Assembly: GCA_944392975.1 (NCBI GenBank)
Contig: CALXYN010000019.1
Span: 1 to 36,843 of the forward strand
Source: an uncultured Spirochaetaceae bacterium
GTDB lineage: Bacteria; Spirochaetota; Spirochaetia; Sphaerochaetales; Sphaerochaetaceae
Direction of reading: 5' to 3'
DNA length: 36,843 nucleotides
Both the position numbers and the translations under genes were made by a program. Positions 23,666 through 36,821 of this stretch are shown piece after piece. The notes under the pieces are model-generated. The model did not search any database. It saw only the letters and a program-made list of their open reading frames with translations, and was not told the origin of the DNA. Positions within the stretch are counted from its first letter, which is position 1; the number at the start of each line of letters is the position of its first letter.

Positions 23666-24157
23666 ATGCATCTCATAGTCTCTGATATCCATGGATCTGA
23701 AGAAGGAATGCTGCTGGTCAGGCAGGCAATTGAGCATTTTCATCCAGAAGGAATCATCAGTGCCGGTGACCAGTGTCCGGATCCTCTGTATTCTGCCTTC
23801 TATTCATCGCTTATCGCAGTACGCGGCAATTGTGACAGATTCTACGAATATTACGATATCCCGTTTCCTCCTCTTTCCAGAGAGATAAAACTCTATGGAA
23901 AAAGAATTGTGATTACGCACGGGCATGAGGCCGTTCCTGATGATTTCGACTTGCAGAAGGGGGATATTTTCATATCAGGGCACACGCATGTGCCATCTCT
24001 CTATGAAGAGGATGGCGTTGTATTCTGCAATCCCGGATCTCCATCAAGACCCCGCTCTTCATCAGGGCCAACTGCAGCAGCATTGTCCGACGAAGGCCTT
24101 TTTCTCTTCTCACTTCTGGATTTCAGCACTCTCAAGGCAATACGCTTCTCCTTCTGA
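23666..24157 (+). CDS. YfcE/MJ0936-family metallophosphoesterase
   Basis: A 163-residue calcineurin-type phosphoesterase. All metal-binding motifs are visible: SDIHG near 6-10, GDQCPD (the family GDxxxD), RGNCD, THGHE and SGHTHVP. The group hydrolyses phosphodiesters such as bis-pNPP in vitro, and in vivo substrates are mostly unknown. The C-terminal strand pair (ALSDEGLFLFSLLDF) fits the family, so the stop at 24157 is probably correct. The last 157 bp lie antisense to the tail of the AOR-like gene. It is divergent from the lipase operon. Confidence 0.92.
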   Translation: MHLIVSDIHGSEEGMLLVRQAIEHFHPEGIISAGDQCPDPLYSAFYSSLIAVRGNCDRFYEYYDIPFPPLSREIKLYGKRIVITHGHEAVPDDFDLQKGDIFISGHTHVPSLYEEDGVVFCNPGSPSRPRSSSGPTAAALSDEGLFLFSLLDFSTLKAIRFSF

Positions 24158-25722
24158 TAATACTCCATAAGCTTCACAGGAGACACTGTCGCATTGTCTC
24201 CATATGCTGTAACTGGTTCAAGCATGAATATATCTGGAACACGTCCTCCATCTATTGCAAATGACTCTGCAAGTGAGAGCCCATGACGGAATATATCTCG
24301 GCCCTTCAATCCAAATGAAGTGAACAACATCGCCACAATGCGGAGAATGAACGGGAAATTGTAGATGAATGACGGAAACCGTCCCCACCACTGAGGGATC
24401 ATACCCATAGGTGAATATCCTTCATCAATAAGTGCAAACCTGTATGCAGTCTCATACAATGCCATTACAGCCGCTGCACGGTCGCTCAGTGGCTTCTTTG
24501 GAAGCAACCATGAAACAGGAAGCGATGCTGGTATATTCAACAGACAGAGAAGCGCACCGGCCTTATCTCCACGTAAATCAGTAAGAATCGGGAGATGCAA
24601 AGCTGTCTCAATCGCATCTGGAAATGACTTCAAGCCGTGCACGAGCTTCTCCCCAAGGCCTCTATTTTCTCCAATCAAATGAATGATGCGGACATACTCA
24701 TCAATTCCTCGTCCATTAAGCACAGGAAGTGTGTAATCAGTACCAGGCAGTGTCGCCAGGTATGAAAGAAGCGCACCGGTATCTGCAATACCCAACCCTT
24801 CTTCCCTCACAGCATCCGAGAGTATTCTCACACTCTCGAGGGAGAAAAAACCAAGATTACTGCCAAGCATCGTGCACTCTTCCCAGGATGGGAGTATTTC
24901 ATTCTCCTTGGTACGGCGTGTGCATGAGAAATAACAATCCTGACAGGAATCCGGATACATTCCGTATTTATCAAGGACAGAACGTCCATCTAAAGCATAT
25001 GCCCGCGGATCGAATCTATCACTGTAGTTTCTTACAGGGAGCCATCCAAGCTGGAGTGCAGAATCTATGAATCGGCCACCACCTTCTTTTCTCAGTGTTT
25101 TTGAAATTCTGCTCCTCTCATGAGCTTTGATAACTTTTCGTTCCAGCTTGCCATTACATACACTGTCTTTTCTTGAAAAACCAGGAAGCGTTATGGCTTT
25201 CAGATTCTTCCATCCAAAAAGACAGCCAAGACCCTTAGAAGCAAGCTCACGGCCGGCACATTGCAGAGATGCATACAGCACACCATTCTCTCCAGCCCGA
25301 CCGATAGCCATTACAATATCTGTAATATTCTTTTTAACTGCACTCTCAGTTTCGATGGAACTCTTGCCGCGAAGCATTTCTGCATGATTGAATTCAGCCC
25401 CCTCTGCACTGATTGAAATAGACTGCAGTTTTCTTGCCCTGCCAACGATGACGATTGCTTCATAACCTAATCTGTATATTGAATATCCGGGAGCAAGAGC
25501 GGAAGAAGCTATCATCATACCGCCTGTCAGAGGAGATTTGAAAACGAGAGAGAAAAACGCAGAACCTTGAAAACGTACTGCTTCACCTTTCGGAGAGGTA
25601 ATTACAACAGGCTGTTCAGCCTCATATTCCTTGTATAACCTGATGGCAAGTTCAAGACCCCTCAGGTCTTCTTTTCTCTTCTCTGTTTCTTCTTTATCGA
25701 GATGTATAACAAGGACTGCCAT
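24001..25722 (-). CDS. Aldehyde:ferredoxin oxidoreductase-like protein, divergent
   Basis: A 573-residue frame related to tungsten AOR enzymes, which oxidise aldehydes with ferredoxin. Recognisable parts are KSPLTGGMM, the GYEAIVIVGRA segment and the Fe-S motif CQDCYFSC (C-x2-C-x3-C, near residue 265). Two features differ. The N-terminal Gly-rich pterin-binding segment expected near residue 30 is replaced by a Lys/Glu-rich stretch. The distal Cys expected in the C-terminal D-x-L-x-x-C region appears as Ser in LIDEGYSPMG. After about residue 525 the protein continues for 45 residues of Ser/Lys/Glu-rich sequence antisense to the phosphoesterase gene, which looks like stop loss. TATAAT ends 6 nt before the ATG. 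Confidence 0.75.
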   Translation of the reverse strand: MAVLVIHLDKEETEKRKEDLRGLELAIRLYKEYEAEQPVVITSPKGEAVRFQGSAFFSLVFKSPLTGGMMIASSALAPGYSIYRLGYEAIVIVGRARKLQSISISAEGAEFNHAEMLRGKSSIETESAVKKNITDIVMAIGRAGENGVLYASLQCAGRELASKGLGCLFGWKNLKAITLPGFSRKDSVCNGKLERKVIKAHERSRISKTLRKEGGGRFIDSALQLGWLPVRNYSDRFDPRAYALDGRSVLDKYGMYPDSCQDCYFSCTRRTKENEILPSWEECTMLGSNLGFFSLESVRILSDAVREEGLGIADTGALLSYLATLPGTDYTLPVLNGRGIDEYVRIIHLIGENRGLGEKLVHGLKSFPDAIETALHLPILTDLRGDKAGALLCLLNIPASLPVSWLLPKKPLSDRAAAVMALYETAYRFALIDEGYSPMGMIPQWWGRFPSFIYNFPFILRIVAMLFTSFGLKGRDIFRHGLSLAESFAIDGGRVPDIFMLEPVTAYGDNATVSPVKLMEYYQKEKRIALRVLKSRSEKRKRPSSDNAAAVGPDEERGLDGDPGLQNTTPSSS

Positions 25723-30536: not shown

Positions 30537-32192
30537 ATGGAAATGCTTGAACTCACAATTGATGGACAGTGCATCATGGCAGAGAAGAATACAAGACTTG
30601 ACAGCATCATTTCAGCTGCTTCAGACACGGAATACAGCCATAATCCCGTTGTTGCTGCAAAAGTGAACGGGCTGCTGACGTCCCTCTCTGAAACGATAGC
30701 TGGCAATGCTGTGATAGAAACAGTAAATCTGGTGTCGCCATTGGGAAAACGCGTGTACAGGAAAAGCCTCTGCTTCCTCCTCTCCTATGCCTCTGCCGCA
30801 ATTGCACCTGAACGGACTCTTATCATCGGGCACAGTCTTGGTGATGGTTACTATTTCAGATACCGGGATGGAGAAAAACCAGATACGGAAAAACTCCGAT
30901 CCGTCATGAATGAAGCAATCAGCAGCAATCTCCCTATAGAGCTCATAGAACTCACCCATGATGAAGGCATTGAATATGCAGAGCAGAAAGGGCTGAAGGA
31001 GACGGAAGAACTTCTGAAGACACTGAATCAGGCTTTCTACCGCTTTGCACGCATCGGTACATGTATGGAGATGTACTATGAACCGCTGCTTCCTTCCCTG
31101 AAGTATCTGAAACTGTGGGAGCTGAGGGAATATGAGGATGGTCTTCTTCTACGCTATCCACAGATGCGTAGTCCTTACTCGATAATGCCATTTACAGACA
31201 ATCCACTGCTCTTCTCCGTTTTCAATGAGAACAAGAGATACGCAAGAATACTTGGAATAGAATCCATCGGGGAATTGAACAGCAAGGTTGTGAGCGGAGA
31301 CATCAGCAAAACGATACTTCTTTCTGAAGCGCTTCAGCAAAGACGCATCTCGGATACTGCAAGAGAGATTGCAAAGAAAGGTACTGTCAGGGCAGTATTC
31401 ATTGCAGGTCCGTCATCTTCCGGGAAGACAACTTTCTCCATGAAGCTTTCAGATGAGCTGAGAGTCAGCGGCTATAATCCAATCAGAATATCTCTTGATG
31501 ACTACTATCTTCCGACAGAAATGATTCCTCTGGATGAATATGGCGAGAAAGATTATGAGGTTCTTGAATCACTTGATCTGAAGCTCCTCCGATCTCAGCT
31601 TTCAGCGCTCATCAGAAGAGAAGCTGTCTGCCTTGCTCGTTTCTCATTCAAGGACAGGAAAACTACATTCGAGAAGATACCGACAAGAATGGAAGATGAT
31701 TCAATTCTTGTCATTGAAGGCATTCACGGCCTCAATCCTGCACTTATTCCAGAACTGGAGAATGACAAGGGTTTCCGTATTTATATATCGGCGCTGACTC
31801 AGGTCAATCTAGACACGAGATCAAGAATAAGCACTACAGATAACCGGATACTACGACGTATGGTACGCGATAACCGTACCAGAGGATTCAACGCTGTGGA
31901 AACGCTATCAAGATGGCCATCTGTGGAGAGAGGCGAAAAGAATCATATTTTCCCGTTCCAAAACAACGCTGACATCATGATAAACAGCGCGCTGGAGTAT
32001 GAACTTGGAGTGCTCAAGCCATATGCATTACCGCTGCTGTCATCGGTCACAAAGGAAAATGGGGAAGCCTATGCAAATGCCAGGAGGCTCCTTGCTTTCC
32101 TTGAATTCATCTATCCGATTCCTTCAGAACTGGTGCCATCTGATTCAATCCTCCGCGAATTCATCGGAGGATCTGTTTACGGGGCTATCTAG
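30537..32192 (+). CDS. TGS-domain nucleoside kinase (uridine kinase-like)
   Basis: A 551-residue protein. Residues 1 to about 60 form a TGS domain like that of threonyl-tRNA synthetase. Next comes a region related to the ThrRS second additional domain (GHSLGDGYYFRYRDGE). From about 285 there is a uridine kinase-type P-loop domain with GPSSSGKTTFSMKL, ISLDDYYLP and the IEGIHGLNP segment. This fusion is found in spirochaetes, Thermotoga and clostridia and is annotated as nucleoside kinase; whether it phosphorylates uridine is not certain. It starts with an extended -10 6 nt before the ATG. Its 3' end overlaps the convergent HTH gene by 8 bp and contains a hairpin (32148-32172). Confidence 0.9.
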   Translation: MEMLELTIDGQCIMAEKNTRLDSIISAASDTEYSHNPVVAAKVNGLLTSLSETIAGNAVIETVNLVSPLGKRVYRKSLCFLLSYASAAIAPERTLIIGHSLGDGYYFRYRDGEKPDTEKLRSVMNEAISSNLPIELIELTHDEGIEYAEQKGLKETEELLKTLNQAFYRFARIGTCMEMYYEPLLPSLKYLKLWELREYEDGLLLRYPQMRSPYSIMPFTDNPLLFSVFNENKRYARILGIESIGELNSKVVSGDISKTILLSEALQQRRISDTAREIAKKGTVRAVFIAGPSSSGKTTFSMKLSDELRVSGYNPIRISLDDYYLPTEMIPLDEYGEKDYEVLESLDLKLLRSQLSALIRREAVCLARFSFKDRKTTFEKIPTRMEDDSILVIEGIHGLNPALIPELENDKGFRIYISALTQVNLDTRSRISTTDNRILRRMVRDNRTRGFNAVETLSRWPSVERGEKNHIFPFQNNADIMINSALEYELGVLKPYALPLLSSVTKENGEAYANARRLLAFLEFIYPIPSELVPSDSILREFIGGSVYGAI

Positions 32193-32499
32193 TTATATAG
32201 ACAGTATGCGTATCTGTAAGCACGTCAGGATAACGCTGAATCATATTCATCAGTCTCAGCGCCGGTCCTGACGGTTCATTGTGCCCGCTCTCCCAGGCTT
32301 CCACGGTCTTTTCTGAAACTCCAAGCAGCTCTGCAAAAAGCCCTACTGAGAGATGCAAACGCAGTCTCAGCGTCCTTATCTCATCATTCGTATATGGTCT
32401 GAGCGGCTCTATATGTATGTATTTGTTGCGTTTGGTGAGGACGCCGCTCTTCTTTGGATAGAGAGCGTCCCTCACCTCCTCAAGATATACACTGATCAT
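32185..32499 (-). CDS. Helix-turn-helix regulator in the nif operon
   Basis: A 104-residue protein. The C-terminal two thirds hold an XRE-type helix-turn-helix of the HigA/NadS kind: YTNDEIRTLRLRLHLSVGLF, then AELLGVSEKTVEAWESGHNE and PSGPALRLM. The N-terminal part (SVYLEEVRDALYPKKSGVLT) is charged. Proteins of this kind are often antitoxins paired with a HigB/RelE toxin, but no toxin gene is adjacent. The ATG overlaps the nifU stop as ATGA, so it is co-translated with nifS-nifU and may sense or regulate Fe-S supply (inference). Confidence 0.85.
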   Translation of the reverse strand: MISVYLEEVRDALYPKKSGVLTKRNKYIHIEPLRPYTNDEIRTLRLRLHLSVGLFAELLGVSEKTVEAWESGHNEPSGPALRLMNMIQRYPDVLTDTHTVYITR

Positions 32500-33107
32500 T
32501 TACCGTAGATATGCAAGGCTTCATTGAGCTCTTCAAGAATCCTGTCGCGGCATTTTCCACATGCAGTAGAACATCCAGTCTCGGCCTGCAGTTCCTCAAA
32601 GTTATTCACTTTACCATTCTTTACCAGTTCTTCAATCATCTGGTCCGTGACGCCCTTGCACTCACAGATGATTTTAGCTGTCGTCCCCTTATAAGGATTC
32701 GGCATGCCATTCTTTTCAAGGTAATCATCGATGGCAGCCCTGAGTGCCTTGTCACCAAGAACTGAGCAATGGAACTTGTGTTCAGGAAGGCCACCAAGGG
32801 CATCGGTAATCATTGCAGGTGTCAGATGATAAGCATCCTCGAGCGACATTCCAATTGCCATCTCGCTCATCATTGATGTGGAAGCAATCGCAGATGCACA
32901 GCCATATGTAAGCCATCTAAGGTCTGAAATCTTTCCATCCTTTACCTTGATACCAACTCTCATCTGGTCTCCACAGGCAAGGGATCCAACTTCCCCAACT
33001 CCATCAGGAGAAAACTCCTCTCCCTCCTTCCACAGATTGCGTGGATTGATGAAATGATCCTTTACTGTATCTGTATATACCCACTGGGCCATGAAACTGT
33101 CAGCCAT
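32496..33107 (-). CDS. nifU: Fe-S cluster assembly scaffold NifU with a C-terminal BFD-type [2Fe-2S] domain
   Basis: A 203-residue scaffold on which Fe-S clusters are built. The N-terminal IscU-like domain has its three cluster Cys at 45 (SLACGD), 70 (TYGCAS) and 114 (FHCSVLG). The C-terminal BFD-like domain has Cys148 and Cys150 (ICECKG) and Cys183 and Cys186 (ACGKC). The usual third NifU domain (Nfu) is absent, as in the shorter NifU of spirochaetes, clostridia and epsilonproteobacteria. GAGGAGG lies 5 nt before the ATG, which overlaps the nifS stop by one nt (TAATG). Confidence 0.95.
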   Translation of the reverse strand: MADSFMAQWVYTDTVKDHFINPRNLWKEGEEFSPDGVGEVGSLACGDQMRVGIKVKDGKISDLRWLTYGCASAIASTSMMSEMAIGMSLEDAYHLTPAMITDALGGLPEHKFHCSVLGDKALRAAIDDYLEKNGMPNPYKGTTAKIICECKGVTDQMIEELVKNGKVNNFEELQAETGCSTACGKCRDRILEELNEALHIYGK

Positions 33108-34279
33108 TAAATCCTCCTCGTGCTCATTGCCCTTACTTTCTCAATAATCGGGGGCAGACGATCGAGCACATAAGCAACATCATCCATTGTGTTGTATCTG
33201 CCAAAAGAGAACCGTATTGAGCCATGTGCAAGCTCCACATCCAGTCCAGCAGCAAGAAGCACATAGCTAGGCTCAAGAGAACCAGTTGCACAAGCTGAGC
33301 CTGTAGATACCTCAATACCTTCAAGATCAAGATAAAGCAGGATTGACTCACCCTCTGCAGATGGGAACGAGATGTTAAGCGTTCCCGGAAGACAAAGAGA
33401 TTCATCATTTGAACCGTTCACGATAACATCCGGAATACGCTCCTCAATGCCCTTGCGGAGAGCTTCCCTCATTGCCCACAGCCTGTCATGCTCATCCTTG
33501 AGATTAATCCTTGCAAGCTCAGCTGCCTTACCGATGCCGAAAATTGCCTGATTATTGTAAGTTCCGGCTCTCATGCCCTTCTCCTGATGCCCACCGTGAA
33601 CGAACGGGGAGAGAGGGACACCTTTTTTAGCATAAAGAACGCCAATGCCTTTAGGACCATAGAATTTATGTCCAGAAAGGGAAAGGTAATCTGCATCGAT
33701 GTCCTTCACCGATACCGGTATCTTACCAATTGCCTGTGTGGCATCAGTGTGGAAGAACGCTCCGGCTTTATGAGCGATTTCTGCCGCTTCCTTTACAGGC
33801 TGAATCGTTCCCGATTCATTGTTTCCTGTCATGATGGAAACAAGCGCGGTATTCTCACCCACCAGACGCTTAAGCTCATCAAGCTTTATGCGTCCTATAT
33901 GATCCACAGGACAGTAATCGATGATGTATCCTTTCTTTGTGAGATATTTTGCTGTCTCAATCGTCGCTGGATGTTCCACCGAAGATATCACGATCCTGTT
34001 TCTCTTGTCTCCGCTATCGATTCTGTCACGGAAGATGTTGAGAACTGAATTATTGCTTTCCGATGCACCGGATGTGAAGTAGATTTCATCTGCCGAAGCC
34101 TCAATGAGATCTGCAACTTCCTTACGGGCCCATTCTATTCCGGCAGCAGCCTGGCGTCCCAATGTATGCATACTGGATGCATTGCCATAGAGGGAATCGT
34201 TTTCATGCATGAATGCAATCACCTCATCCGCCATTCTGGTTGTGCCGTTGTTATCGAGATAGACATATCTTCTATCCAT
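33107..34279 (-). CDS. nifS: Cysteine desulfurase NifS/IscS type
   Basis: A 390-residue PLP enzyme that removes sulfur from cysteine and passes it to NifU. It has YLDNNGTTR at the N-terminus, FTSGASESNN and VEHPA for cofactor binding, the PLP Lys in LSLSGHKFYGPKG and the persulfide Cys in STGSACATGS on a long mobile loop (group I). I start at the ATG at 34279 because GGAG lies 6 nt upstream. An ATG at 34291 is in frame, and TACCTT with TTGACG 17 bp upstream ends 7 nt before it, so a leaderless start there is possible. It is separated from the upstream Cys-cluster gene by about 50 nt. Confidence 0.95.
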   Translation of the reverse strand: MDRRYVYLDNNGTTRMADEVIAFMHENDSLYGNASSMHTLGRQAAAGIEWARKEVADLIEASADEIYFTSGASESNNSVLNIFRDRIDSGDKRNRIVISSVEHPATIETAKYLTKKGYIIDYCPVDHIGRIKLDELKRLVGENTALVSIMTGNNESGTIQPVKEAAEIAHKAGAFFHTDATQAIGKIPVSVKDIDADYLSLSGHKFYGPKGIGVLYAKKGVPLSPFVHGGHQEKGMRAGTYNNQAIFGIGKAAELARINLKDEHDRLWAMREALRKGIEERIPDVIVNGSNDESLCLPGTLNISFPSAEGESILLYLDLEGIEVSTGSACATGSLEPSYVLLAAGLDVELAHGSIRFSFGRYNTMDDVAYVLDRLPPIIEKVRAMSTRRI

Positions 34280-34332
34280 ATAATTCTCCATCGGACTTAA
34301 GGTACTTGCCCCGGCTAAGCTCGTCAAGAAGC

Positions 34333-34629
34333 TTATCGGGATGAAGAGAGTACGAACTCCCTCTTACCCCTCATTCTGATATGGTGTTTCCTTGCCCACT
34401 CCACATATGCACAGGAATCTGGAAGAGACCTGCTGAACATGGCCTTAAATGGTGTGACTTTCTCGCAGCGATGACATTTTGCAAAGCGTTCTGAGTAGAC
34501 ACTGCAGAGATGTGTTTCCTCATCGTAGAACTCACAGGGTGATGACAAATCAATCTCAAGGACATCCGGATAAATCACTTTCTCATGACAGCAGAGACCG
34601 CAGTTTACGCAGATATCCTCCCACTTCAT
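34333..34629 (-). CDS. YkgJ/YcgN-type cysteine-cluster protein
   Basis: A 98-residue cytoplasmic protein with nine Cys arranged as in the CxxCGxCC zinc/iron-cluster family. It has ICVNCGLCCHEK near the N-terminus, then SPCEFYDEETHLCSVYSERF, KCHRCEKVTP and a final LPDSCAYVEW. The family function is unknown. The ATG at 34629 overlaps the surE stop as TGATG; a longer frame to 34704 is rejected because the extra 25 residues do not fit the family. It lies between surE and nifS. Confidence 0.88.
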   Translation of the reverse strand: MKWEDICVNCGLCCHEKVIYPDVLEIDLSSPCEFYDEETHLCSVYSERFAKCHRCEKVTPFKAMFSRSLPDSCAYVEWARKHHIRMRGKREFVLSSSR

Positions 34630-35360
34630 CAAAGCGTCTCCATTGCCTCTGAAAGTGATGGAAGAGTGTTGACGATCGAAACGGATGCAGCTCCTGATTG
34701 ACATATCTCATGATCTGCCCGGTAATGCGAAAGAGATGGCATGTATTCCATATCAGCATACTCTATTTCCAGTATACGCTTGTCCTTATGGCTCTCACGG
34801 ACTGCCACGGAATCATTATAAACAATCTCACCAATACCGCCTGCTTCATATTTTCCGTTGAATGCAGATGGCACATTGATGTTCATGAACGTTCCTCTTG
34901 GTATTTTTGAGATAAAGGAATCAAGATTGGCAGCAAGGAATTCTGCAGCTTTACAGAAAAGCTCGGCATCATCTCGCTTCTCAACTGACAATGCGATTGC
35001 CTTCATCCCATAGAAAGCTGCTTGTCTCGCTGCTGCACAAGTTCCAGAGAAAACAATATCCGTAGAAAGATTGTAACCATGGTTAATACCGGAAATCACG
35101 ACATCGAAAGCAACGGGGAACAAAGAACAGCGATGGCTGTAGACAATGCAATCTGCTGGTGTTCCTGAGACATGGAAGTGATGCGGGGCAAACTCCGTGA
35201 CGGTAACCTTCCCTCTTATTGTCATTGCATGGGACTTTCCACTCTGCTCGCTGTCAGGTGCAGAGACATAGATTTCGTGTCCATAAGATGCAAGAACCTC
35301 TTCAAGAATTCTTATACCGTCAGCCTTGTAACCATCATCGTTAGATAAAAGGATATTCAT
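34629..35360 (-). CDS. surE: 5'/3'-nucleotidase SurE
   Basis: A 243-residue metal-dependent phosphatase that hydrolyses nucleoside monophosphates and exopolyphosphate, linked to stationary-phase survival. It has the N-terminal LLSNDDGYKADGI with the metal-binding Asp pair, APDSEQSGKSHAMT, SGTPADC and VISGINHGYNLSTDIVFSGT. Length is slightly short for the family. The ATG at 35360 lies 20 nt inside the 3' end of the upstream GHMP-type gene, so the two are translationally coupled. Confidence 0.94.
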   Translation of the reverse strand: MNILLSNDDGYKADGIRILEEVLASYGHEIYVSAPDSEQSGKSHAMTIRGKVTVTEFAPHHFHVSGTPADCIVYSHRCSLFPVAFDVVISGINHGYNLSTDIVFSGTCAAARQAAFYGMKAIALSVEKRDDAELFCKAAEFLAANLDSFISKIPRGTFMNINVPSAFNGKYEAGGIGEIVYNDSVAVRESHKDKRILEIEYADMEYMPSLSHYRADHEICQSGAASVSIVNTLPSLSEAMETL

Positions 35361-36513
35361 CTTCTGGTATTATCCTTATTGAACCGGATGGGATGTACTC
35401 CCTCATTGTCGGCCTGAAGCCGAATATGCGTTCATACTCCTCAAGTTTTTCCTTGAATTCCTCTTCCTTGCCATTTTCTATAAGTGCAACAAGCGTTCCT
35501 GTGATTCCTACTGAAATTTCAGTGACACCACAGACACTGCTCATCTCGGAACCGCGCTTTACAAGCCAGTCAACCTCAGGAGAAGTAAGACCTGCCTGCT
35601 GTGAAATATTCCTCTGTTCAATTGAAAGGATTTTTCCAAGCTGGGCTGAATCCCCGGCAAGGAGTGCCTCATAACCTTTATCTGCAGCCATGGAATCTTC
35701 AATCACGAAGGATATGATTCTCTTCCAGTCCTCCTGCAGAGCATTGTTCTCGATAATCTCCTTCCGTGTCACAGTTCTTAGCTTTGCGCCTTTTGATGAT
35801 TCTCTCAAAGCGGAGAAGGCTTTATCTGCCTCAACACGGAAGATTGCGACCTCCTCTGCCAGTTCATAAGCCGGAAGAGCACAGTCAATGAACCAGGAAC
35901 CATATCCGCGTTCTGGTATGAATGGATAGTCAAAAGATGTGTATTCATATGTTTCCAGATCGAAACGGATCATCTTTCCCGGCTCAGATGAAAAGATTGT
36001 GATCAGATCGCGAAGCCTTGATTTGTAAACATCGGAAAATCTCTTTGAATTATATGCAAGACGCACAAGACGATTTATTTCGATGTCATAACCACAGAGC
36101 TTATTAAGTGCAAAAAGAAGACCGGAGGTGATAGCTGCTGTGATTGCAGGAGGATCTGCAACCGCGCTCTGGCCTTTGATTGTCAAATCAAAACCCGGTA
36201 CGTCTAATTCTGCGGCCTGCAATACCTGACACACAGATTTGACAGGAGTACACCATCTGTCCTCTTTACGCGATCTAAGACCTACCAGCTGGAATTTCTT
36301 TTTCTCTTTTTTTGTGGAATTAAGTACCCTTACCTGACTGTCATCACGTTTTGAGACAGCCACCCTCAGTCCCTGTGTGTTGGTACTCATAAGGGCATAA
36401 CCTGAACAGAAATCAGAAAAAGCTCCAAGGAGAGTGGTGACCTGAGGGACTTCCACAACAACATCTGGCGCTACACCATATTCAGCTTTATGTACGTCGA
36501 CGATACCCTTCAT
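35341..36513 (-). CDS. Galactokinase-like GHMP-family protein with degenerate active-site motifs
   Basis: A 390-residue protein with the overall length and layout of galactokinase. The three GHMP motifs are altered. The first, normally P-G-R-V-N-L-I-G-E-H, reads VPQVTTLLGAFSDF (residues 22-35). The second, normally P-x-G-x-G-L-S-S-S-A and binding ATP phosphates, reads QSAVADPPAITAAI (about 114-128). The third, normally G-G-G-F-G-G-x-x-x-A-L, reads SVGITGTLVALI near 340. ATP binding is therefore doubtful and it may be a pseudokinase or binding protein. GGAG lies 7 nt before the ATG and a strong promoter precedes it. It heads the surE-nif cluster. Confidence 0.7.
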   Translation of the reverse strand: MKGIVDVHKAEYGVAPDVVVEVPQVTTLLGAFSDFCSGYALMSTNTQGLRVAVSKRDDSQVRVLNSTKKEKKKFQLVGLRSRKEDRWCTPVKSVCQVLQAAELDVPGFDLTIKGQSAVADPPAITAAITSGLLFALNKLCGYDIEINRLVRLAYNSKRFSDVYKSRLRDLITIFSSEPGKMIRFDLETYEYTSFDYPFIPERGYGSWFIDCALPAYELAEEVAIFRVEADKAFSALRESSKGAKLRTVTRKEIIENNALQEDWKRIISFVIEDSMAADKGYEALLAGDSAQLGKILSIEQRNISQQAGLTSPEVDWLVKRGSEMSSVCGVTEISVGITGTLVALIENGKEEEFKEKLEEYERIFGFRPTMREYIPSGSIRIIPEDEYPFI

Positions 36514-36536: not shown

Positions 36537-36565
36537 AATATAGACAAATAAAGTTTTTTTGTCAA
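36537..36565 (-). promoter_or_regulatory. Promoter of the GHMP-surE cluster, with a leader
   Basis: On the minus strand a perfect TTGACA (36560-36565), a 17-bp spacer and TATATT (36537-36542). The predicted start near 36530 leaves a 16-nt leader containing GGAG. Confidence 0.8.
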
Positions 36566-36595
36566 AAACAAAGGCCGAGGCAATAAACCCCGGCC
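36566..36595 (-). terminator. Intrinsic terminator of rpmE
   Basis: On the minus strand GGCCGGGG and CCTCGGCC pair over 8 bp with one G-U (36588-36595 and 36573-36580), a 7-nt loop and the tail TTTGTTTTT. The promoter of the next gene begins at once in the U-tract. Confidence 0.85.
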
Positions 36596-36614: not shown

Positions 36615-36821
36615 TTAGTTTGACTCTCTGTGGTATCTCTTGTTGAAGCGTTCAACACGTCCTGTTGTGTCAACGAGCTTCTGTGTTCCTGTAAAGAACG
36701 GATGGCATGCTGAGCAGATTTCAACATGAAGGTTCTTTGCAGTTGATTTTGTCTTAATCACATTGCCACAAGAGCAATGGATTTCCTGCAGTGTGTACTC
36801 AGGGTGGATATTCTTTTTCAT
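36615..36821 (-). CDS. rpmE: 50S ribosomal protein L31, zinc-binding type
   Basis: A 68-residue ribosomal protein. It begins MKKNIHPEY and has the zinc Cys pairs at 16/18 (CSC) and 36/39 (CSAC), so it is the C+ form rather than the zinc-independent YtiA type. The [20 protein letters not shown] core is typical. GGAGG lies 7 nt before the ATG. The promoter would lie beyond the window edge or within the last bases. Confidence 0.97.

Follow-up and report, generated by a model that had tools for sequence, protein, structure and literature searches.

The window analysed here, by which we mean the whole 36,843-nt stretch of DNA, makes up contig C19 in the 2.07-Mb assembly of a gut bacterium, an assembly that is 95% complete. 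Next to surE it encodes a 390-aa protein that resembles galactokinase (GalK) and yet lacks most of the residues by which galactokinases are recognized. What can such a protein still do, and is it still a kinase at all? A preliminary description of this DNA, made from the sequence, took the protein for a GHMP-family galactokinase-like protein in which all three motifs are degenerate, with no other galactose gene nearby and with translational coupling to surE, and considered a pseudokinase regulator or a partner of SurE conceivable. We examined these proposals by profile searches, structure prediction and comparison across the class Spirochaetia.

A galactokinase fold with overwritten motifs

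NCBIfam galactokinase models match the protein with an E-value of 4.3e-24, and GalK sequences from the PDB match it with an E-value of 1.1e-13. The AlphaFold2 model (pLDDT 94.4, pTM 0.91) matches human galactokinase (6zfh) in Foldseek with an E-value of 1.9e-28, and VIA aligns it to L. lactis GalK (1pie) with a Z-score of 39.6 and an rmsd of 3.0 over 371 residues. Both comparisons place the model in the two-domain GHMP fold; the fold is shared over its whole length with canonical GalK (1pie, 6gr2 and 2dei; Z about 35–40), which is of similar length. We therefore rejected the possibility that the protein lies outside GHMP. The profile and fold results thus agree with the family assignment made earlier: an unrelated fold was not seen, the model being clearly that of a galactokinase. 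In contrast to canonical GalK, however, the protein misses the curated GalK family score in the Pfam and NCBIfam models that matched. The NCBIfam match scores 85 bits where the model requires 443, the score for TIGR00131 is 59.7 against a cut-off of 226.65, and three Pfam GHMP/GalK domains match below their gathering scores.

We scored 13 positions typical of canonical GalK, whose conservation was measured on 19 canonical control rows. The window protein keeps four (D34, D169, G336 and G339) and has lost the other nine. Motif 1 of GalK (PGRVNLIGEHTDYN) supplies an arginine and the sugar-binding Glu, His and Asp; in the window protein V25, T27, A31 and F32 are substitutions, and D34 is the only scored residue of the motif that is kept. 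The glycine/serine phosphate loop GLSSSA is absent, with PPAITA at its place, and the model predicts a helix at residues 115–118 and another from residue 121 where the phosphate loop belongs. The predicted structure of a near-intact relative (L064) has a strand, a nine-residue loop (134–142, with numbering matched to the window protein) and a helix. D169 aligns with the catalytic Asp of GalK and is invariant in the 25-row clade to which the window protein belongs. In motif 3, SVGITG replaces GAGFGG, such that two glycines remain (G336 and G339) and three residues are gone, Gly at positions 334 and 338 and Phe at position 337. The three strings quoted in the preliminary description are indeed present in the 390-aa ORF, starting at residues 22, 115 and 334. 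Its statement that all three motifs are degenerate holds for the nine lost positions, but the degeneration is incomplete, since four positions remain.

The genome also carries a second GalK-type gene (L191:3251–4501, on G000:C49) with GGNHTDHN in motif 1, an intact GSGLSSSA and 10 of the 13 positions kept. This gene falls in the canonical group of the tree on a very long branch (2.63) and scores below the TIGR00131 cut-off; we refer to it as a putative galactokinase. It adjoins ORFs that, named by eye, are acetate-kinase-like and MATE-transporter-like. GalT (PF01087) was not found in the genome's assembly, which is 95% complete.

The locus and its link to surE

The minus strand of the window reads, in order, rpmE, a hairpin, a promoter-like site, the GalK-like ORF, surE, the gene for a cysteine-cluster protein, nifS and nifU (Table 1). 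The surE and GalK-like ORFs overlap by 20 nt, an arrangement that fits the coupling put forward in the preliminary description, and no other galactose gene was detected among the 19 window proteins run against Pfam, likewise as stated there. Our scan found 5 promoter-like sites where shuffled sequences gave 7.6; hence, the promoter call rests on the quality of the site (11/12), its place and its recurrence in relatives. When the upstream regions of 10 loci, those of the window and of close relatives, are aligned, eight contain TTGACA and seven contain TATATT.

Table 1. Coordinates of features at the GalK-like locus (positions in the window)
Feature	Position	Strand	Basis
Galactokinase-like protein, 390 aa	35341-36513	-	ATG ORF; fold and family evidence
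surE, 243 aa	34629-35360	-	Pfam, E 2.2e-47
rpmE (ribosomal protein L31, 68 aa), upstream neighbour	36615-36821	-	Pfam Ribosomal_L31, E 7.7e-32
Terminator-like hairpin, after rpmE	36573-36595	-	Sequence scan
Sigma70-like promoter TTGACA-17-TATATT, 11/12, ahead of GalK-like gene	36537-36565	-	Sequence scan
CxxCxxCC cysteine-cluster protein, downstream of surE	34333-34704	-	Pfam
NifS-type cysteine desulfurase	33107-34327	-	Pfam, NCBIfam
NifU-type scaffold protein	32496-33107	-	Pfam
Overwritten motif 1, residues 22-38 VPQVTTLLGAFSDFCSG	36400-36450	-	Alignment; canonical about PGRVNLIGEHTDYNxG
Overwritten phosphate-loop motif 2, residues 113-128 KGQSAVADPPAITAAI	36130-36177	-	Alignment; canonical about GxLPxGSGLSSSASL
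Catalytic-Asp segment, residues 160-174 SDVYKSRLRDLITIF	35992-36036	-	Alignment
Overwritten motif 3, residues 329-342 GVTEISVGITGTLV	35488-35529	-	Alignment; canonical about GARMTGAGFGGC

Two other genes of the window may be recorded here. A small HTH protein encoded after nifU (32185–32499) matches HTH_3 and has weak similarity to the MqsA antitoxin (Pfam), and its cluster is present in 8 of the GalK-like loci. At 24001–25722 lies a 573-aa aldehyde ferredoxin oxidoreductase homologue with AFOR_N and AFOR_C domains, the host being a spirochaete.

The conservation of the galK-like/surE pair in spirochaetes, a check proposed in the preliminary description, proved extensive. Among 82 loci with at least 700 bp downstream of the GalK-like gene, surE starts within 150 bp in 75 and at 156 bp in two more; the remaining five (L049, L053, L059, L073 and L175) are without it. 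Of the 47 loci with at least 3.5 kb upstream, 32 have rho there and 30 have rpmE; other neighbours encode CinA, Lnt, a TPR protein and an NHL-repeat protein.

Across 100 genomes, 85 have both genes, 2 have the GalK-like gene only, 6 have surE only and 7 have neither, a co-occurrence with a Fisher p of 3.4e-6 (3.6e-4 without the window's genus) when genomes are treated as independent of kinship. In this count an 88-aa SurE fragment in G068 was scored as present, and the weak matches in G078 (E-value 4.2e-5), G079 (1.1e-6) and G099 (0.0065) were scored as absent; of these three, the G079 match was the one included in a tree, where it falls with canonical GalK. SurE was not detected in G080 or in G082 (one contig, 99% complete), both of which have the GalK-like protein. 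G053, G067, G072, G078, G079 and G092 have SurE without it, and all seven genomes without both genes are of 1.8 Mb or less.

A spirochaete family in graded states of erosion

With a strong match defined as one with an E-value under 1e-15, 90 of 100 Spirochaetia genomes (the window's included; 48 of them of its genus) have a match to the protein, and 87 have a strong one. In a phylum-wide set of 247 genomes, 166 have a match, canonical GalK being among these, and no match was found in any of the 16 f19 genomes listed in that set. The best 80 of 539 relatives all bear spirochaete names, with Bullifex and Aphodenecus verified as such; Candidatus Ornithospirochaeta, Bullifex porci and Sphaerochaeta are the closest named ones within these 80. 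One genome, a single contig of 1,139,633 bp (G152), encodes a 397-aa family member that overlaps surE and is the only PF10509 match found there.

A phylogenetic tree of 91 rows separates 72 family rows from 19 canonical GalK rows, nine of them matches from outside the class Spirochaetia, with an SH-aLRT of 100. The split into one clade also holds against 20 canonical rows, when the window genome's own GalK-type gene is added; both trees omit 12 near-identical rows. By its position in this clade, by its residues K92, P312, W316, R320, I363, F364 and F366, and by its adjoining surE, the window protein belongs to what we term the spirochaete rho–surE GalK-like family, which differs from canonical GalK in clade, in locus and in its own invariant residues. 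One family genome, G093, is 8% contaminated and contains two copies, L077 (G093:C169) and L061 (G093:C29), possibly from two organisms. Outside the class, in the same phylum, some GalK matches lie within open frames of more than 700 codons (L184 on G112:C13, and others on G123:C1, G134:C72 and G142:C32), which suggests galactokinase fused to another domain, as judged from these frames.

We then counted the 13 key residues in 84 aligned family rows, a set that omits L001 as a duplicate and both L016 and L027, which are truncated at contig edges. None keeps all 13; 24 rows keep 10–12, 14 keep 7–9 and 46 keep six or fewer. Of the 19 canonical controls, which include the truncated ORF L078 and the divergent row L083, 12 keep all 13 and the rest keep 7–12, the lowest being a truncated ORF. 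The 46 eroded rows comprise 45 from the window's GTDB family (f1), in which the kinase residues go down to 3–6 of 13, and L075 of f11. The motif-1 arginine is present in only 8 of 84 family rows, while the position of the catalytic Asp is retained in 66. On an 88-row tree built without the motif columns, which omits the 12 near-identical rows together with L047, L078 and L083, the catalytic Asp requires 10 changes and the eroded label two. Thus, kinase residues have been lost repeatedly within the family. Two of the four family members run, L064 (5262–6476) and L055 (5281–6435), pass the TIGR00131 galactokinase cut-off, both without the motif-1 arginine. Since distant members keep up to 12 of the 13 residues and some pass this cut-off, active kinase may have been the family's ancestral state.

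Conserved residues and selective constraint

Against this background of erosion, seven residues (K92, P312, W316, R320, I363, F364 and F366) are identical in all 84 family rows, from near-intact to fully eroded; they occur in 6, 3, 1, 1, 2, 4 and 2, respectively, of the 19 canonical rows. H8 is present in 83 of 84 family rows versus none of the 19 canonical rows, E11 in 81 versus one, and E323 in 80 versus three. It is these family-specific residues that, at the level of sequence, hint most strongly at a conserved function distinct from phosphotransfer.

Of the 62 motif columns, 36 are invariant in the window's 25-row clade, as compared to 73 of 328 columns elsewhere (Fisher p 5e-8), and the invariant residues include K113, Q115, D120, R166, R168, D169, T331 and E332. 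The enrichment was non-significant in two other groups: p was 0.13 for six L029-type rows and 0.24 for a set of 10 rows drawn from other GTDB families. The proportion pN is lower in the motif columns than in the rest in 20 of 21 pairs, although these pairs share rows. The dN/dS ratio is 0.056 between the window and its nearest relative. Of 21 pairs, 14 gave a finite dS, and their ratios span 0.015–0.158, rough values with dS above 1 in most. Within the window's clade, divergence of the protein is similar to that of surE (GalK-like/surE identities of, for instance, 78/76, 63/64 and 54/55%; 67/73% for L012), whereas beyond that clade, the rest of the GTDB genus included, the protein diverges faster (39/48 and 33/39%). 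The best explanation for the old pocket in the window's clade, on these comparisons, would be rebuilding and no drift.

Discussion

What, then, does the protein do? We assign a probability of roughly 60% to the reading that it is a class-wide, galactokinase-derived pseudokinase of the Spirochaetia with a retained function that would not need phosphotransfer. An active site that is overwritten and yet tightly conserved among close relatives makes another job probable, and the protein is most likely a regulator or scaffold. This job could be carried by H8, E11, K92, P312, W316, R320, E323, I363, F364 and F366, and the family-invariant residues would most simply form a protein-protein contact face, while the former ATP/sugar pocket may have been rebuilt in the window's clade. 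SurE would be the first candidate partner, being encoded by an overlapping ORF that is probably co-transcribed, and other partners are possible. Of the two proposals in the preliminary description, the pseudokinase is well supported by sequence and family evolution, whereas the partnership with SurE remains circumstantial.

Decay of a galactokinase by pseudogene-like drift would account for the lost kinase motifs and for the single stop codon in the aligned stretch of four strong matches (G027, G084, G088 and G093:C169). We consider this exceedingly improbable, since both the window and the remaining strong matches have an open frame and divergence within the window's clade is close to that of surE; the low dN/dS and the conservation rule it out in practice. 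It is also quite improbable that the protein is a still-active kinase that acts on another substrate with an unorthodox mode of nucleotide binding. Distant members are nearly intact, and the catalytic Asp position is occupied in 66 of 84 members and in 25 of 25 of the window's clade, but the window protein has lost the glycine and both scored serines of the loop, the arginine, and the Glu and His that bind the sugar, and its predicted structure has a helix at the position of the loop.

The pocket might instead have been rebuilt with polar residues as a new ligand-binding or catalytic site, with which the protein would sense or convert some small molecule that is neither galactose nor ATP. The invariance of K113, D120, R166, R168, E332 and D169 could mean a different catalysis instead of none, and the excess of invariant motif columns in the 25-row clade, Q115 and T331 among them, and their low pN point the same way. 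We nevertheless regard a new site as unlikely, because the replacements differ in other subclades within this GTDB genus and family and the enrichment does not extend to the two other groups. In GHMP folds the motif columns line the inter-domain core, and packing of this core could explain part of their conservation; structural constraint alone could conserve these columns. A dedicated partner of SurE, one that binds it and controls its nucleotidase or polyphosphatase activity (both activities are ascribed to SurE proteins in PMC8475336), with overlapping ORFs from which the two would be produced jointly, is possible but rather doubtful. The adjoining genes and their joint presence and absence favour it. 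However, unrelated housekeeping genes in one operon would give the same picture, and joint loss from genomes of at most 1.8 Mb may be plain reduction. Moreover, the protein is present in G080 and G082, where SurE was not detected, which makes a sole function via SurE unlikely, and the six genomes with SurE alone further weaken a strict SurE-only partnership.

A broader view, which we offer tentatively and hold to be improbable as a whole, joins elements of these readings. The protein would be an ancient spirochaete-wide regulator with a galactokinase fold and a function that was never dependent on phosphotransfer, so that the active site could be rewritten repeatedly. The window's lineage would have turned the pocket into a new ligand site under strong selection (K113, Q115, D120, R166, R168, D169 and E332), through which a partner, for instance SurE, is tuned.

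A pseudokinase reading of the family has precedents. Yeast Gal3p is a galactokinase relative that acts as the transducer of the GAL switch, regulating by protein contact; it binds galactose and ATP with no transfer. VIA aligns the window model to Gal3p (3v2u and 3v5r) with a Z-score of 29.1. Gal3p was crystallised with Gal80p, galactose and a nucleotide, according to the PDB title, whereas the residues for both ligands are overwritten in the sequence of the window protein. Unlike Gal3p, the spirochaete protein spans a bacterial class, and it has no known Gal80-like partner. The division of galactokinase relatives into enzymes and co-inducers has been described (abstract of PMC3048525); a search of passages of that paper yielded nothing on Gal3p residues. 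XOL-1 of C. elegans has a GHMP-kinase fold, undetected ATP binding and a regulatory role, as summarized in part of PMC11349215; it is a eukaryotic developmental switch, likened to the spirochaete protein by description alone. By analogy, the spirochaete protein may join such regulatory GHMP-kinase relatives. At the level of titles and the starts of abstracts of the papers listed, we found no description of a spirochaete GalK-like/surE family, the main text of the T. pallidum interactome (PMC2386257) contains none of the terms searched, and a passage of PMC3265458 provided no function.

The family calls for caution in automatic naming: L064 and L055 pass the TIGR00131 cut-off despite the missing arginine, and automatic annotation may name them galactokinase. 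The graded series from near-intact to overwritten members makes the route from enzyme to pseudoenzyme testable with natural sequences. Finally, a bacterial class seems to carry a regulatory GHMP relative as a widely kept gene, even in a genome of 1,139,633 bp.
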